A stretch of 7,021 nt of DNA from Myxococcales bacterium (GTDB taxonomy: Bacteria > Myxococcota > Myxococcia > Myxococcales > Anaeromyxobacteraceae), in assembly GCA_021784995.1 (NCBI GenBank), contig JAJYHA010000116.1, positions 1 to 7,021 of the forward strand, given 5' to 3'. This document shows positions 426 to 6,214 of the stretch, piece after piece. A program made the position numbers and the translations under genes. A model generated the notes under the pieces. It was not told the DNA's origin. It worked only from the letters and a program-made list of their open reading frames with translations, and made no database searches. Position 1 is the stretch's first letter; each line of letters begins with the position of its first letter.

Positions 426-1886
426 CTACATCCCGAAGTTGATCACGTACACCGTGGTGGCCACGACGGTGCCGCCGGACACCGTGCCGTCCACGCGGAC
501 GAGCTTCCCGTTCGCGAGGGTCGTGCCGCCGCCCATGACGGGGACGATCTGCGCGTGCGACGCGTCGACCGTCTGGCCGTCCACCGTGAAGGTGGTCCCG
601 GAGAGCCCGCTGACGGTGCCCATCAGGTGGACCACGGTGGCCGCCGGCGCCGGAGGCGTCGCCCCCGTGTCGAACATGATCTGGTCGGCCACCACGCCGC
701 TGCTGCCGACGTGACCGTGCACGAACACGAGCGCGCCGGGGACGAGCTGCGCGGCCGTCCCGTTCACGAAGGTCGCCTGGGCGTAGCCGACGGTCGTGCC
801 GCGGACGACGAAGGTCGTCGCGGTGGTGTCCACGCTCGAGATGGCCCCGATGAGCAGCACCGCCGGCCGCGACATCGACGGCAGGATCGCGATCCGCGTC
901 GCCTGGATCTGGTCGTTCGCGAACGTCCCCTCCACGCGCACGAACGCGTTCACGACCAGGTCGGCGGCCGTGGCCGGCGCGACCAGGCTCGCCTGCGAGG
1001 CGTCCACCGTGTAGCCGTTCACGGTGAAGTTCGGGAGGGCCTGTCCGGTGACGGGCGTGACCGACGTCACCGCGCCGCCCACGAGCACCGGCCGGCTGGC
1101 GAGCGCCGCGCGCGGGACGAAGATGCTCCTGGCGGTCAGCGTCGGCGGGTTGCCGCCGGGGAGCTGGTCGCTGAAGACGAAGACCTTCTCCCCGTCCTGG
1201 ATGGTCGCGCCGGAGGGCACCAGGGTCGCCGAGCCGTAGGAGACGGTCAGCGTGCCGAGGGTGAAGGTCGCCGCCGTGGCGTTCGTGTTCTGGACGATGC
1301 CGGCGACGCGCACGACGGTCGCCCCGCCGGGCGGCATCACCACGATGCGCGTCGCCACGACGTGGCCGGAGGCGTCGAGCGTCCCGAACACCTCCACCAG
1401 CTGCCCGTCCGCGAGCTGGGCGGCGCCGTCGACGCCGTCGAAGGCGGTCGCGTCGGCGCCCGTGGTCGTGAAGACCACCGTCTGGCCGTCGACCGTGAAG
1501 CTGTCCGCGAGGGGGTTGGTGGTCCCGGCGTCGTTCGGGTTGATGGAGCCGGCGTCGATCTTGCCGATCACGCTGGCGAGGATCGAGACGTGGGTGATCG
1601 CGCCGTTGGCGAACGTCACCATCACCTGCTGGCCGATGTGCAGGTCGTCCAGGGTGGCGTCGATCGGGTGGGCTGGGTCCGTGTCCCTCGAGACCGTCGC
1701 GCCCGAGTCGTCGTACTCGACGCCGTCGATCACGACGCTGCCGAAGCCGGTGATGGTGCCGGTGGCCGCCTGCAGCGCCGTGCCGCCGGTCGTGCCCGAC
1801 GAGCCGCCGGCGGTGGATGAGCTGCCTCCGCAGGCCGCCAGGGCCAGGGCGAGCGGTATGACCAGCCACGGGGTGCGTCCCTGCAT
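426..1886 (-). CDS. DUF5666-repeat lipoprotein
   Basis: This is a 486-residue secreted lipoprotein of unknown function. The start is the ATG at 1886, chosen because AGGAGGG (1893-1899) sits 6 nt upstream and the product then begins with a textbook signal: Arg4, hydrophobic stretch about 7-18, lipobox L-A-A-C with Cys19 followed by Gly-Gly. An upstream ATG at 1991 would add 35 residues ahead of the signal and is unlikely. After a Gly/Ser/Thr linker (20-37) the mature part is a tandem series of about six 65-80-residue units, starting near 42, 107, 192, 267, 343 and 419. Each has a core like G-x-(V/I)-x-S ... F-T-V-D-G-x-T-V ... G-x-x-V-x-V-x-G-T ... V-V-A-T-x-I. This pattern resembles DUF5666, a beta-rich OB-like domain found in bacterial lipoproteins. 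No catalytic motif is apparent. It probably faces the periplasm or outer surface. The gene is monocistronic, ending in the hairpin at 376-414. Lipoprotein call firm, function unknown. Confidence 0.88.
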   Translation of the reverse strand: MQGRTPWLVIPLALALAACGGSSSTAGGSSGTTGGTALQAATGTITGFGSVVIDGVEYDDSGATVSRDTDPAHPIDATLDDLHIGQQVMVTFANGAITHVSILASVIGKIDAGSINPNDAGTTNPLADSFTVDGQTVVFTTTGADATAFDGVDGAAQLADGQLVEVFGTLDASGHVVATRIVVMPPGGATVVRVAGIVQNTNATAATFTLGTLTVSYGSATLVPSGATIQDGEKVFVFSDQLPGGNPPTLTARSIFVPRAALASRPVLVGGAVTSVTPVTGQALPNFTVNGYTVDASQASLVAPATAADLVVNAFVRVEGTFANDQIQATRIAILPSMSRPAVLLIGAISSVDTTATTFVVRGTTVGYAQATFVNGTAAQLVPGALVFVHGHVGSSGVVADQIMFDTGATPPAPAATVVHLMGTVSGLSGTTFTVDGQTVDASHAQIVPVMGGGTTLANGKLVRVDGTVSGGTVVATTVYVINFGM

Positions 1887-2074: not shown

Positions 2075-2557
2075 ATGAGCAAGACGCCCTCCACCCCGGC
2101 GACCCGCCTCCTCCGCTCGCGCGGGGTGAGCTATTCGGAGCATCCCTACCGGTATGAGGAGCACGGGGGGACGCGGGTCTCCGCGCGCGAGCTGGGTGTG
2201 GACGAGCACGCGGTGGTGAAGACGCTCGTCATGGAGGATGACACGGGCGCGCCCCTCGTCGTGCTCATGCACGGCGACCGGGAGGTCTCCACCCGGGAGC
2301 TGGCGCGCCAGGCGGGTCACCGCACGGTCCGGCCCTGCCGCCCCGAGGTGGCCAACCGCCACAGCGGCTATCTGGTCGGCGGCACGAGCCCGTTCGGTAC
2401 GCGCAAGGCGATGCCGACCTTCATGGAGCGGAGCATCCTCGACCTCGGCACCGTCTACGTGAACGGCGGGTCGCGCGGCTTCCTGGTCGGGATCGCCCCC
2501 GCCGACCTGGCGCGGGTCCTCTCGCCGACCCTCGTCGACGTCGCCATCGACCGCTGA
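2075..2557 (+). CDS. ybaK: YbaK-type Cys-tRNA(Pro)/Cys-tRNA(Cys) deacylase
   Basis: The 160-residue product matches the YbaK/EbsC family in length (E. coli YbaK is 159). The family hydrolyses cysteine mischarged onto tRNA(Pro) by prolyl-tRNA synthetase, a trans-editing step in the cytoplasm. Visible signatures are A-V-V-K-T-L-V with the family's essential lysine at Lys49, the G-G-T-S-P-F-G loop at 102-108, and the Y-V-N-G-G-S-R-G-F strand and loop at 128-136, the usual YbaK-domain core. The N-terminus (T-x-A-x-x-L-L-R-S-R-G-V, then H-P-Y) is also typical. The ATG at 2075 is chosen because it gives the family length, although its Shine-Dalgarno is weak. The stop overlaps the next gene's start (TGATG), so the two are probably co-transcribed. 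Related subfamilies (ProXp-ala, ProXp-x) have other amino-acid preferences. The length and the G-G-x-S-P-F-G loop favour YbaK, but substrate choice is inferred. Confidence 0.9.
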   Translation: MSKTPSTPATRLLRSRGVSYSEHPYRYEEHGGTRVSARELGVDEHAVVKTLVMEDDTGAPLVVLMHGDREVSTRELARQAGHRTVRPCRPEVANRHSGYLVGGTSPFGTRKAMPTFMERSILDLGTVYVNGGSRGFLVGIAPADLARVLSPTLVDVAIDR

Positions 2558-3510
2558 TGGAGGCCCCCGGCTCCGCACGCCCGGCGCATGGCGAGGCTCC
2601 GCTCCTGGGATTCGAGAGCCGGGTCGTGGAGCTGGACGGCCCGGTGCACTACGCGGACTTCGGCGGCACGGGCCGTCCCGTGGTGCTGGTGCACGGCCTG
2701 GGCGGATCGCACCTCAACTGGGCGGCGGTGGGAACGCGGCTCGCGGCCCACGGCCACGTGATGGCGCTCGACCTGGCGGGCCACGGGCGCACGGGCGGCC
2801 CGCGGGGCTCCTCGCGCGTCGGGAGCAACCGGCGGCTCCTCCATCGGTTCCTGGAGCGGCTCGCGCCCGAGCCGGCCGTGCTGATCGGCAACTCGATGGG
2901 CGGCTACCTGTCGCTCGCCGAGGCGGCTGCCGCGCCGGAGCGGGTCGCCGCGCTCGTCCTGGTCGATCCGGCCCTGCCGCTCGTGCGCGGCGCGCGCGTG
3001 GACCGCCAGGTGCTCGCGCTCTTCGCCGCCAGCGCCGTGCCGCTCCTCGGCGGCGTCCTGGTGCGCTCGCGCTTCGGGCGCGAACCCGAACGGATGGTCC
3101 GTGACATGCTGGCGCTCTGCTGCGTCGACCCGTCGCGCGTGCCGCCCGACGTGTACGCGGCGCACGTGGAGCTGGCGCGCTGGCGGTTGACGCTCGGCGG
3201 CGCCACCGGGCGCGAGTTCCTCGCGGCGCAGCGCTCCCTCATGAACCGCCTCCTTCGACCGCGCCACTTCTGGCGGATGGTGGAGGCGGTGCGCGCGCCG
3301 GCGCTGGTGGTGCAGGGCGACCGCGATCGGCTGGTCCACGTAGAGGCCGCGCGGGCACTCGCCGCCGCGCGGCCCGACTGGCGCCTGGCGGTGCTGGAGG
3401 GCGTGGGGCACGTGCCGCAGCTCGAGGCGCCGGAGCGCTTCCTGGCGGTGGCCGCGCCGTGGCTCGACGCCCACGGCGCGCCGCGACGGGGGGCGGGGGA
3501 GGGCGCCTAG
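2557..3510 (+). CDS. alpha/beta-fold hydrolase
   Basis: The 317-residue product has the canonical alpha/beta-hydrolase layout. The oxyanion-hole segment V-L-V-H-G-L-G-G-S lies at 43-51. The nucleophile elbow G-N-S-M-G-G at 111-116 places the nucleophile at Ser113. The acid region V-Q-G-D-R-D has Asp257 as the likely catalytic acid, and the histidine is His285 in G-V-G-H-V-P. The strand before the elbow (P-A-V-L-I-G) and the D-L-A-G-H-G-R-T segment (72-79) are typical of the esterase/epoxide hydrolase/C-C hydrolase group. Residues 140-240 form a variable, mostly helical lid that would set substrate choice. There is no signal peptide, so it is probably cytoplasmic. The ATG overlaps the ybaK stop as TGATG with no separate Shine-Dalgarno, suggesting translational coupling. 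A substrate cannot be read from sequence. The stop codon interlocks with that of carG on the other strand. Confidence 0.9.
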   Translation: MEAPGSARPAHGEAPLLGFESRVVELDGPVHYADFGGTGRPVVLVHGLGGSHLNWAAVGTRLAAHGHVMALDLAGHGRTGGPRGSSRVGSNRRLLHRFLERLAPEPAVLIGNSMGGYLSLAEAAAAPERVAALVLVDPALPLVRGARVDRQVLALFAASAVPLLGGVLVRSRFGREPERMVRDMLALCCVDPSRVPPDVYAAHVELARWRLTLGGATGREFLAAQRSLMNRLLRPRHFWRMVEAVRAPALVVQGDRDRLVHVEAARALAAARPDWRLAVLEGVGHVPQLEAPERFLAVAAPWLDAHGAPRRGAGEGA

Positions 3511-4052
3511 GTCTTCGCCAGCCGGACCCTGCGCTCGCTCTTCTCGCGATCGAACACGCAGAGGTCGGACTCGGGGCTGGCCGGCAGCGACGGCGACCAC
3601 GAGGGGTGCATGGCGCAGCGCGCGTCGTAGCAGTGGTGCAGGTCCCACAGGTGGCCCACGGCGTGGATCGCCTCGCGCGCGAGGCGCTTGCGCCAGGTCT
3701 CGATGGAGGCCTCCGTCACTCCGCGGGCCGGGAAGCGCGCCGTGGAGACGACAGCCTTCTCGCCGCCGTACTCGGCGTAGCTCCAGCATTGCGGCTCGCC
3801 GAGGGGGCCGGGCTCGAGCGCCAGTCGGGCGCTCGTGAGGTACAGGATCTTGTCGTCGGCGAAGGTCTTGACCGGCCTCACCTCGGCCACGAGCTTCACC
3901 GCGTCGTACCGGCCGTCGGCCAGCTTCGCCTCCGGCGGCAGCGGCCGCTCGCCGGAGTGCTCGGTTCCCAGGCCGAACGCCTGGTAGAGCGTGCGCGCGA
4001 GCAGGGCCATGTCCTCGGCCTCGAACGGCTCCAGCGTGACGATGCGGATCAC
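3507..4052 (-). CDS. carG: CarG: zinc-bound archaemetzincin-like partner of CarD
   Basis: The 181-residue product is the length of an archaemetzincin but lacks the catalytic residue. The zinc motif is H130-A-V-G-H134-L-W-D-L-H-H140-C141-x4-C146-A-M148, then C165-V-F-D168. The archaemetzincin pattern is HExxHxxGxxHC-x4-CxM-x17-CxxC. All three zinc-binding histidines, the first three cysteines and the Met-turn methionine are kept. The catalytic Glu is Ala131, the conserved Gly is Asp137, and the last Cys is Asp168. In M. xanthus, CarG has Gln in place of that Glu, binds two zincs, shows no protease activity and acts only with CarD in light-induced carotenogenesis and development. By homology this is a transcription co-factor at the nucleoid. 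The GTG at 4052 overlaps the carD stop (GTGA, 4 bp) and has AAGGGG (4061-4066) 8 nt upstream. The family is clear from motif and position. Loss of protease activity is inferred. Confidence 0.9.
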   Translation of the reverse strand: MIRIVTLEPFEAEDMALLARTLYQAFGLGTEHSGERPLPPEAKLADGRYDAVKLVAEVRPVKTFADDKILYLTSARLALEPGPLGEPQCWSYAEYGGEKAVVSTARFPARGVTEASIETWRKRLAREAIHAVGHLWDLHHCYDARCAMHPSWSPSLPASPESDLCVFDREKSERRVRLAKT

Positions 4053-5230
4053 TTCCTCTTCCCCTTCACGGCCCGCTTCGGGGCTGGCTTCGCGGGCGTC
4101 TTCTTTCCCCCGCGGGCGGGGCGTGCCGCCGCGCGTCGCGGCGCCGGGAGCGACTTCTTCGGGGCCGGCTTCGCCGCGGCCTTCTTCGGAGGCTGCTTCG
4201 CGGGCTGCTTCGCGGGCTGCTTCGAGGACTGCTTCGAGGACTGCTTCCGCGGCTCGCGCCGGGCAGCCGTCTTCTCGAGCCGGGAGGTGCGCCCGGGACG
4301 TGCCGCCCCGGCGGCGGGCCTCCGGGCCGCCGGCCTGCCTGGCGCCGGCGCCTCCTCCTCGCCCTCCGCCTCCACCGCCTCGGGCTCCTCGCCCTCCTCC
4401 TCGGCGTCGATCCCCGGCAGCGCCTCCTCGACGGCGCCCTCGACGTCGGGCGCGGGGATCTCGTCCGCGGTGGGGATCGCCGGGCCCGAGCCCTCCTCGC
4501 CCGTCTCGGCGCCCGCGCCCGGCTCGGCGGCGCCCGCGGGGAGCTCGCCGAGGTCGAGGCCGAGGTCGTCGAGCGCCAGGTCCTCGTCGTCGGTGCGCAT
4601 CACCTTCCGGCGCGGTCGCGACGGCAGCTCGACGGGCTTGGGTGGTGGCTTGAGCTTGAAGGTGACGCCCGCGGGCGGCATCAGCGCGTGGTCGATGTAG
4701 TCCTCGGCGAGCGCCGGCGGGACCGCCAGCGAGACCGCCACCTCGTGCACCAGCAGGTGGCGCGCGTTGTCGTACTGCTCGCGCTCCTTGGTCGGGAGCG
4801 GTCGGATGCGCGAGAGCGAGTGCAGCCCCTTCACCACCTCGGCCACGCCGAGCACGCCGCCCGCGATGAGGCGATCGGCGTTGTCGCGGTGGCGGACCTT
4901 CCAGTCCAGCTCGGGGTCGTCGTACTGCGCCGCCAGGTAGTGGAAGACGCCCTCGATCTGTCCGGCGCTGGCGACCTTGCGCAGGCCGATGGCCGGCACC
5001 TTGTTCCGGGGGACCAGGACCGCCGCGCCGTCCTCCTCGCGCACCATCCGCACCAGCTCGAGCTTCTGGCCGGCGATCTCCTTGCGCTCGACGCCCGTGA
5101 TCCGGCACACGCCCTGGTTCGGGTAGACGACCCGATCTCCCGTCGCGAGGTCGGCCGCGTCGAGGATGACCCCCTCGACGGCCGGATACTGTTCCCTGGG
5201 CTCGTCCTGCCGGGCGGGTGGGCCTCTCAC
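4049..5230 (-). CDS. carD: CarD: RNA polymerase-binding regulator with histone H1-like tail
   Basis: This 393-residue transcription factor has three parts. Residues about 28-190 are the CarD/CdnL module: a Tudor-like RNA polymerase-interacting part (G-D-R-V-V-Y-P-N-Q-G-V at 31-41) and a helical part in which W110-K-V-R-H-R-D-N aligns with the W-S-R-R-Y-K-A-N of mycobacterial CarD. Residues 214-293 are acidic (Asp/Glu with Ala/Pro/Gly). Residues 296-393 are strongly basic and rich in Lys, Arg, Ala and Pro, resembling a histone H1 C-terminal tail. M. xanthus CarD instead has an HMGA-like tail with RGRP AT-hooks, and none are visible here. An H1-like tail is the reported form in Anaeromyxobacter dehalogenans. 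By homology it acts at ECF-sigma-dependent promoters together with CarG. GTG start with AAGGGG (5236-5241) 5 nt upstream. It overlaps carG by 4 bp and lies 69 bp after the methyltransferase stop, probably in one transcript. Confidence 0.93.
   Translation of the reverse strand: MRGPPARQDEPREQYPAVEGVILDAADLATGDRVVYPNQGVCRITGVERKEIAGQKLELVRMVREEDGAAVLVPRNKVPAIGLRKVASAGQIEGVFHYLAAQYDDPELDWKVRHRDNADRLIAGGVLGVAEVVKGLHSLSRIRPLPTKEREQYDNARHLLVHEVAVSLAVPPALAEDYIDHALMPPAGVTFKLKPPPKPVELPSRPRRKVMRTDDEDLALDDLGLDLGELPAGAAEPGAGAETGEEGSGPAIPTADEIPAPDVEGAVEEALPGIDAEEEGEEPEAVEAEGEEEAPAPGRPAARRPAAGAARPGRTSRLEKTAARREPRKQSSKQSSKQPAKQPAKQPPKKAAAKPAPKKSLPAPRRAAARPARGGKKTPAKPAPKRAVKGKRK
4191..4250 (-). repeat. five tandem 12-bp units in the carD tail (K-Q-x-x repeat)
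   Basis: Five consecutive 12-bp units occur in plus-strand phase at 4191, 4203, 4215, 4227 and 4239. The core GCTGCTTCG or ACTGCTTCG repeats nearly exactly: units 2 and 3 differ at one base, units 3 and 4 at one base. Because 12 is a multiple of 3, copy changes keep the reading frame. They encode K-Q-S-S, K-Q-S-S, K-Q-P-A, K-Q-P-A, K-Q-P-P in the basic tail (about residues 329-348). In histone H1-like tails such units are usually disordered, with regularly spaced lysines contacting the DNA backbone. Confidence 0.9.
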
Positions 5231-5235
5231 GAGAT

Positions 5236-5241
5236 CCCCTT
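5236..5241 (-). promoter_or_regulatory. ribosome binding site that fixes the carD GTG start
   Basis: On the minus strand AAGGGG lies 5 nt before the GTG at 5230. No ATG is available in frame before the conserved CarD domain, so this site decides the start. The same hexamer precedes the carG GTG (4061-4066, 8 nt spacing). Confidence 0.7.
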
Positions 5242-5299: not shown

Positions 5300-6214
5300 T
5301 CACGCGCGTGGTCCCGGGGCTGCCTCCGCGCCGGGCGTCTCGCGACCCGCGAGCGACGGGTGAGCGCCCGCGCCGAGCGCGTGGAGCCTGGCTGCGGCGA
5401 GCCGCACGTACTCCGCGCTGCGCTCGACGCCGACGAAGCGGCAGCCGGCGCGGAGCGCCGCGACCCCGGTGGTCCCGGAGCCGCAGAACGGGTCGAGCAC
5501 GAGGTCGCCGGGCCCGGCGCTGGCCGCCACCACGCGCTCCATCAGCGCGAGCGGCTTCTGCGTCGGGTGGCGCCCGTGCACCTTCTCGCGCGGGCCAGGG
5601 GTCGGGAGCGCCCACACGACCTGCTCGCCCCCGGGCGCCGGCCGCTCGGTGATGCTCCACAGGTCGCGCATCTGCTTGCCGCCGTTGGCCGCCTTCATCT
5701 CGCGGTAGTTGAAGCGGTGGGGGAGCGGGCGCAGGCGCGTGGGGCTGGCCCAGAGCAGGATCTCGGTCGAGTGGGTGAAGAAGCGGCAGGCCAGGTTGGG
5801 CGCGGCGTTGGGCTTGTACCAGGTCACGGTGTTGAGCAGGTGGAACCCCAGCTCCTGCATCGCGTAGCCGACCGAGAAGATGACGTGCTGCGTCCCGGAG
5901 ACCCACAGCGTGCCCGACGGCTTCAGCACGCGGCGGCAGGCGGTCAGCCAGCGGGTCTGGAAGGCGTGGTCCTCCGCCACGCCGCCCGAGCGGTCCCACG
6001 CTCCCTTGTCCACCCGGACCCGGCGGCCGCTCTGACAGGTGGTCCCGCCGTTCGAGAGGTGGTACGGAGGGTCGGCGAAGACGAGATCGACGGAACGGGG
6101 AGGCAGCCGCTCGAGCGATTCGACGCAGTCGGCCTCCACCAGCGCCCACCCCGGCCCGCGCTCGGCCGTGCCGGGCAGCGCGTCCCATCCGTGAAGATCG
6201 AGTCGTCGTGCCAT
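5300..6214 (-). CDS. beta-class DNA methyltransferase (probable N6-adenine), no restriction partner in the window
   Basis: The 304-residue product transfers a methyl group from S-adenosylmethionine to DNA. The catalytic motif IV, A-D-P-P-Y, is at 47-51. The AdoMet-binding motif I, D-P-F-C-G-S-G-T-T-G, is at 241-250, after H-P-T-Q-K-P (216-221). Motif IV before motif I is the beta-class order. DPPY favours N6-adenine, whereas SPPY would favour N4-cytosine. The block from G-T-L-W-V-S-G-T (101-108) through W-Y-K-P-N-A-A-P-N-L (132-141) and F-T-H-S-T-E (146-151) is typical of type II-like N6-adenine enzymes. The target sequence cannot be read. I chose the ATG at 6214. An in-frame ATG at 6268 would add 18 residues with atypical codons and leave only 3 bp before the divergent gene. 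Neither start has a strong Shine-Dalgarno. No endonuclease lies beside it in the window. It lies 69 bp upstream of carD on the same strand, so co-transcription is likely. Confidence 0.9.
   Translation of the reverse strand: MARRLDLHGWDALPGTAERGPGWALVEADCVESLERLPPRSVDLVFADPPYHLSNGGTTCQSGRRVRVDKGAWDRSGGVAEDHAFQTRWLTACRRVLKPSGTLWVSGTQHVIFSVGYAMQELGFHLLNTVTWYKPNAAPNLACRFFTHSTEILLWASPTRLRPLPHRFNYREMKAANGGKQMRDLWSITERPAPGGEQVVWALPTPGPREKVHGRHPTQKPLALMERVVAASAGPGDLVLDPFCGSGTTGVAALRAGCRFVGVERSAEYVRLAAARLHALGAGAHPSLAGRETPGAEAAPGPRA

Follow-up and report, generated by a model that had tools for sequence, protein, structure and literature searches.

Among the closest described systems are the CarD-CarG pairs of Myxococcus xanthus and Anaeromyxobacter dehalogenans, the second of which reportedly (Garcia-Heras, PNAS 2009) can stand in for M. 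xanthus CarD, but only if both of its genes are supplied. M. xanthus CarD is 316 amino acids (aa) long, with an AT-hook region that can be replaced by histone H1 or an H1 tail (PMC8156234), and its part corresponding to the CarD_C domain binds CarG (PMC4374960). CarD of A. dehalogenans is described as having no AT-hooks and as resembling the C-terminal region of H1, and that of Vulgatibacter incomptus is alike (PMC9304148); an H1-like tail was thus, as a preliminary description of the present locus had it, already known from Anaeromyxobacter. Here we analyze a carD-carG pair in a 7,021-nucleotide (nt) stretch from a Myxococcales bacterium of the Anaeromyxobacteraceae (assembly GCA_021784995.1, contig JAJYHA010000116.1; hereafter the window). 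It is very probably the orthologous CarD-CarG regulatory unit of an Anaeromyxobacter-type bacterium, because of its domains, tail, kept residues, gene order, 4-nt overlap and archaemetzincin-like CarG, and because on our joint tree it falls in starred sets of CarDs lacking the RGRP AT-hook.

The carD-carG pair

The two genes and the parts of CarD are as follows.

4049-5230, minus strand: carD, 393 aa, GTG start, TGA stop; nearest named relatives in Anaeromyxobacter
4973-5149, minus strand: CarD residues 28-86, CarD_TRCF_RID, RNA polymerase beta-binding module (Pfam PF02559)
4691-4948, minus strand: CarD residues 95-180, CarD_C domain (Pfam PF21095)
4352-4594, minus strand: CarD residues 213-293, acidic linker, 81 aa, net charge -30
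4052-4351, minus strand: CarD residues 294-393, Lys/Ala/Pro/Arg tail, 100 aa, net charge +31, no RGRP
3507-4052, minus strand: carG, 181 aa, GTG start, archaemetzincin-like zinc protein without the catalytic Glu

Both domains of CarD score above their Pfam cut-offs (39.3 bits against 23 for PF02559, 61.5 against 23.1 for PF21095), and the best Protein Data Bank (PDB) sequence match of the RNA polymerase module is 2lt1, the structure of M. xanthus CarD 1-72 (PMC4374960). The acidic linker and basic tail, with limits placed by eye, agree closely with the 80 and roughly 98 residues that the preliminary description had given them, and the coordinates in that description are exact. Across the whole 196-residue tail, acidic and basic residues are separated by a score of 56, against a maximum of 36 in 10,000 shuffles. 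The basic part (100 residues) contains 24 Ala, 18 Pro, 18 Lys and also 15 Arg, and the window CarD tail has no RGRP AT-hook of the HMGA type; a single PGRP core, found where the basic part begins (residues 297-300), does not qualify as a canonical RGRP hook. This Lys/Ala/Pro-rich composition without AT-hooks, as read earlier, places the protein with the H1-like CarDs of the A. dehalogenans type, and at the sequence level its two domains, acidic-then-basic C-terminal region and adjacent carG in the same direction are those of a myxobacterial CarD.

Homology of the tail to linker histone H1 was considered and rejected: no histone family matched it in Pfam at E up to 1, and its sole match there was a disordered-repeat model (E 0.11). 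The earlier wording of a eukaryote-like linker-histone tail therefore holds for composition and fails for a histone match, and "H1-like", as judged from the residues present, is a likeness of composition.

Comparison of the first 200 residues with the CarD of an M. xanthus-like row of our survey (L127, whose 316-aa CarD matches 2LT1 over 72 of 72 residues) revealed identity at 102 of 182 aligned positions. With A. dehalogenans CarD (P0117) the window protein shares 79% identity over 53% of its length. In the alignment to L127 the window retains P56, W92, K93, R95, R97, T129, K130 and R132 (M. xanthus numbering); K93/R95/R97 correspond to the basic patch K111/R113/R115 of the window CarD_C, and in M. 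xanthus the K93A/R95A/R97A change abolishes CarD activity, with CarG binding unaffected (PMC4374960).

The zinc partner CarG directly follows CarD, as had been claimed, sharing GTGA with it. Its AlphaFold model has a mean predicted local distance difference test score of 90.9, and archaemetzincins match it by sequence, including in a sequence profile search of PDB chains, although it lies below the curated cut-offs of PF07998 (23.9 of 24.4) and NF033823 (59.6 of 145). NCBIfam NF033824 was rejected as the CarG family, as the M. xanthus-like CarG of L127 scores only 24.2 of 250 bits.

Tail type, gene overlap and ancestry among relatives

A search at E up to 1e-20 detected CarG in 140 of the 147 genomes of the class and in 140 of the 195 genomes of the phylum, with first-look candidates scored only in part for most genomes. 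The matched genomes were identical, so that none of the 48 others has CarG at this threshold if the 147 are among the 195; weaker archaemetzincin-like matches to CarG occur outside the class. CarD was readable beside CarG in 137 of the 140 genomes (the contig ends first in three), with no RGRP in 52, one in 3 and at least two in 82. The word "rare", which the preliminary description had used for such a tail, is thus an overstatement. With the window included, there are 138 rows, 53 RGRP-less and 85 with RGRP, under a strict count: among the RGRP-less rows two hold a bare GRP (the window and L076) and three [RK]GR. Tails of the RGRP-less rows range from 95 to 480 aa, and their basic part, picked by charge, has a median of 30% Lys. 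Acid-then-base separation exceeded 500 shuffles each in 53 of 53 RGRP-less rows and also in 73 of 85 RGRP rows, so this order is not special to H1-like tails. L076 has the longest tail of the 138 rows (480 residues), with its one GRP and no RGRP.

A search for a second CarD, made in eight relatives, gave one CarD-like frame of the CarD length class per genome, the other PF02559 matches being TRCF and CdnL as judged by frame length. All 16 loci found with CarG (Anaeromyxobacter 10, Anaeromyxobacteraceae 1, and Myxococcales, Deltaproteobacteria or Proteobacteria titles 5) share the gene order and the 4-nt overlap, so the gene pair is real and no chance arrangement. Around the two starts of the window pair lie the following features.

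4049-4052, minus strand: GTGA, four bases shared by the carG start and the carD stop
5236-5241, minus strand: AAGGGG before carD, possible moderate ribosome-binding site
4061-4066, minus strand: AAGGGG before carG, within the last carD codons

The upstream stretches pair with the anti-Shine-Dalgarno (anti-SD) sequence at duplex energies of -7.3 (carD) and -8.3 (carG), and equally strong pairing occurs at 11% and 8%, respectively, of sampled positions on the same window strand. The overlap, the repeated AAGGGG and the two GTG starts are as first described, whereas AAGGGG as a signal has moderate strength only; similarly, the arrangement said to fit coupled production is present, and translational coupling of carG to carD through the overlap is plausible. 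M. xanthus carG is called translationally coupled to carD (PMC8156234), yet in L127 a gap of 58 nt separates the two genes, so the overlap is not the only route to coupling.

The 4-nt overlap occurs in 46 of 53 RGRP-less rows versus 2 of 85 RGRP rows. One of the seven exceptions in the former group, L179, is an artefact of undetermined letters in carG, and the same locus read as L012 has the 4-nt overlap. The last carD codons, which spell Gly-Lys-Lys-Lys in 18 of the 53 RGRP-less rows, double as the purine-rich stretch before carG; across the rows, the median anti-SD energy is -8.4 where the genes overlap and -7.2 where they do not, a small gain. A functional tie between overlap and tail type was tried and rejected, as only three independent pairs lay on starred branches and gave it no support beyond kinship, and kinship may explain the association.

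The joint tree was built from 136 rows, after removal of L162 and L072, whose N-terminal parts are partial; on it, tail type (RGRP or none) requires five changes. The window belongs to starred sets made up of RGRP-less rows only, of 3 rows (96), 23 rows (99) and 41 rows (98); its nearest rows, in the set of three, are L048 and L179, the latter from the same genome as L012, Anaeromyxobacter sp. RBG_16_69_14. Rooting the CarD N-terminal part with six CdnL sequences (of seven sought; L026 was not recovered) put the root on the AT-hook side, while rooting CarG with four archaemetzincin-like paralogues put it on the RGRP-less side, with the AT-hooks nested. Both rootings were made without the long rows L093 and L096, the first also without L162 and L072, and the second without L179, L171 and L058. 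Since they disagree and their outgroup branches are very long, with a warning from the tool, we draw no conclusion on which tail is older; an H1-like ancestor of CarD has been proposed from a set with two H1-like CarDs (PMC9304148).

Among the neighboring genes in the window, a DNA methylase gene at 5300-6214 (minus strand) resembling CcrM, below the model cut-off, lies 69 bases upstream of carD, and in 7 of the 16 loci a relative stands upstream of carD on the same strand, at distances between roughly 15 bases and roughly 1.2 kb. An alpha/beta hydrolase gene at 2557-3510 (plus strand) is convergent with carG, overlapping it tail to tail at 3507-3510, where the palindrome CTAG supplies the stop codons of both genes. 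A putative lipoprotein, identified by eye at 426-1886 (minus strand), has four DUF5666 stretches.

The zinc site of CarG

The metal motif of the window CarG comprises these residues.

3549-3665, minus strand: CarG residues 130-168, with H130 A131 H134 D137 H140 C141 C146 M148 C165 D168

The protein carries the motif HxxxHxx[E/D]xxHCx4CxM without the catalytic Glu, modeled on that of M. xanthus CarG (PMC8156234): all three His are present, but Ala takes the place of the Glu of HExxH, and Asp (D168) that of the fourth zinc Cys, so that a Cys4 site ending in Cx2C is replaced by one ending in Cys-x2-Asp. The comparison covers the 138 CarGs that accompany a read CarD, to which the three genomes lacking a readable CarD do not contribute. 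Apart from the truncated L058 and L171, all of them (136) can be read at the third and fourth zinc Cys: 118 are Cys-Cys, 10 Cys-Asp and 8 Asp-Cys, and none of the 136 has Asp at both positions or any residue besides Cys and Asp. Every one of the 18 Asp-bearing CarGs is in an RGRP-less row. One quick tree requires at least six changes, three per position (L072 is off the tree and uncounted). The Asp-bearing rows include A. soli (L011) and those matching Fw109-5 (L043) and A. diazotrophicus (L048), making an assembly fault unlikely.

We treat Asp at one of the last two zinc Cys, on the alignment of these proteins, as variation inside the CarG family, and a candidate Cys3Asp zinc site in the Asp-bearing CarGs is likely. 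Literature searches found no paper describing such a site, which is weak evidence of absence. The link between Asp and RGRP-less tails is weak because most RGRP-less rows are kin, although L154 and L164 sit on the AT-hook side of the tree. More speculatively, and with rather more doubt than belief, we suggest that the CarG partners of AT-hook-less CarDs, that of the window among them, may have had Cys4 repeatedly recast as Cys3Asp at one or the other of the last two positions, the metal site being retuned in step with the tail switch; if true, this could mean looser zinc, a different metal or redox behavior. Caution is warranted as, in the same alignment, the His ligands vary too: among the 82 rows with at least two RGRP, H134 is replaced by Thr in 16 and H130 by Gln in 25. 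The zinc of the catalytic site may therefore not be constant across the family either.

In the alignment, the CarGs of L062, L092 and L096 keep the Glu of HExxH, and those of L092 and L096 also the following Gly, giving intact-looking metzincin motifs. A. oryzae has three further archaemetzincin-like genes (L180, L184 and L185), of which L184, read by eye, combines a full HExxHxxGxxHC motif with Asp at the last zinc Cys.

Alternative explanations and comparison with known systems

By analogy with the M. xanthus and A. dehalogenans orthologues, the N-terminal Tudor-like module would attach CarD to the beta subunit of RNA polymerase, CarD_C would hold CarG and carry the essential basic patch, the disordered basic tail would bind DNA by charge and not by AT-hooks, and the acidic linker would serve as a spacer or damper. 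CarG would be a dead archaemetzincin held by zinc and needed for function, chiefly at promoters of extracytoplasmic function (ECF) sigma factors.

Several observations weigh against this reading. Two M. xanthus CarD residues required for contact with RNA polymerase, F41 and M54, are both Leu in the window, and L100 is Ala. Changing each of the four Cys of M. xanthus CarG to Ser gave no complementation (PMC3427221), and with one of these an Asp, the zinc site of the window protein may differ. The Shine-Dalgarno signals of carD and carG are only moderate. Furthermore, CarA, CarH and the other light-pathway factors are missing from A. dehalogenans and V. incomptus (PMC9304148). The Asp at CarG 168, the two Leu at polymerase-contact positions and the missing light-pathway factors would also fit a pair that has drifted to another role, no longer at ECF-sigma promoters as in M. 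xanthus, but we consider this improbable given that the essential basic patch and the carD-carG pairing are kept. The pair of A. dehalogenans is, moreover, reported to have functioned in three processes of M. xanthus. Polymerase-contact mutants of M. xanthus CarD are themselves still active (PMC4374960).

We give still less credence, to the point of thinking it very improbable, to the view that the tail is low-complexity padding of little function, with CarD relying chiefly on its N-terminal part and on CarG. The poor conservation of the 53 RGRP-less tails in sequence and in length would suit such padding, as would the partial activity that tail-less M. xanthus CarD keeps; full activity there, however, needs the tail (PMC4374960, PMC8156234). 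The acid-then-base separation beyond shuffles in every RGRP-less row also speaks against padding, as does the Lys content of the basic part, although that part was chosen by charge.

The arrangement is already published, and the window adds a further member; the value of the analysis is in the survey of tail type, gene spacing and zinc motif over 137 genomes and in the zinc-site variation of CarG. With the survey, two questions can be put to the test: the order in which the two tails arose, and the ability of Asp to stand in for a zinc Cys reported as essential in M. xanthus CarG.

Compared with known proteins, the stand-alone CarD-like CdnL has the same RNA polymerase module, with PF02559 frames of 171-197 aa in seven of the eight relatives, but leaves no room for an acidic linker and a basic tail, and in M. 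xanthus it fails to bind CarG (PMC4374960). Archaemetzincins (M54; PMC3427221) resemble CarG in sequence and metal motif, whereas the window CarG has lost the catalytic Glu. The M. xanthus pair shares the RNA polymerase module, CarG-binding part, acidic stretch, basic tail and adjacent CarG; in contrast to the window, its CarD has four RGRP AT-hooks, and in L127 the genes are separated and the CarG carries Gln in place of the catalytic Glu, along with four zinc Cys. The row matching A. dehalogenans (L050) is similar in its acidic linker, Lys/Ala/Pro tail without AT-hooks and adjoining CarG with a 4-nt overlap, but its CarG keeps all four zinc Cys, and Arg is more abundant in the tail of the window CarD (16% of its basic part versus a median of 6% in RGRP-less rows). 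The window pair adds to a bacterial case in which histone-like and HMGA-like tails do the same job.

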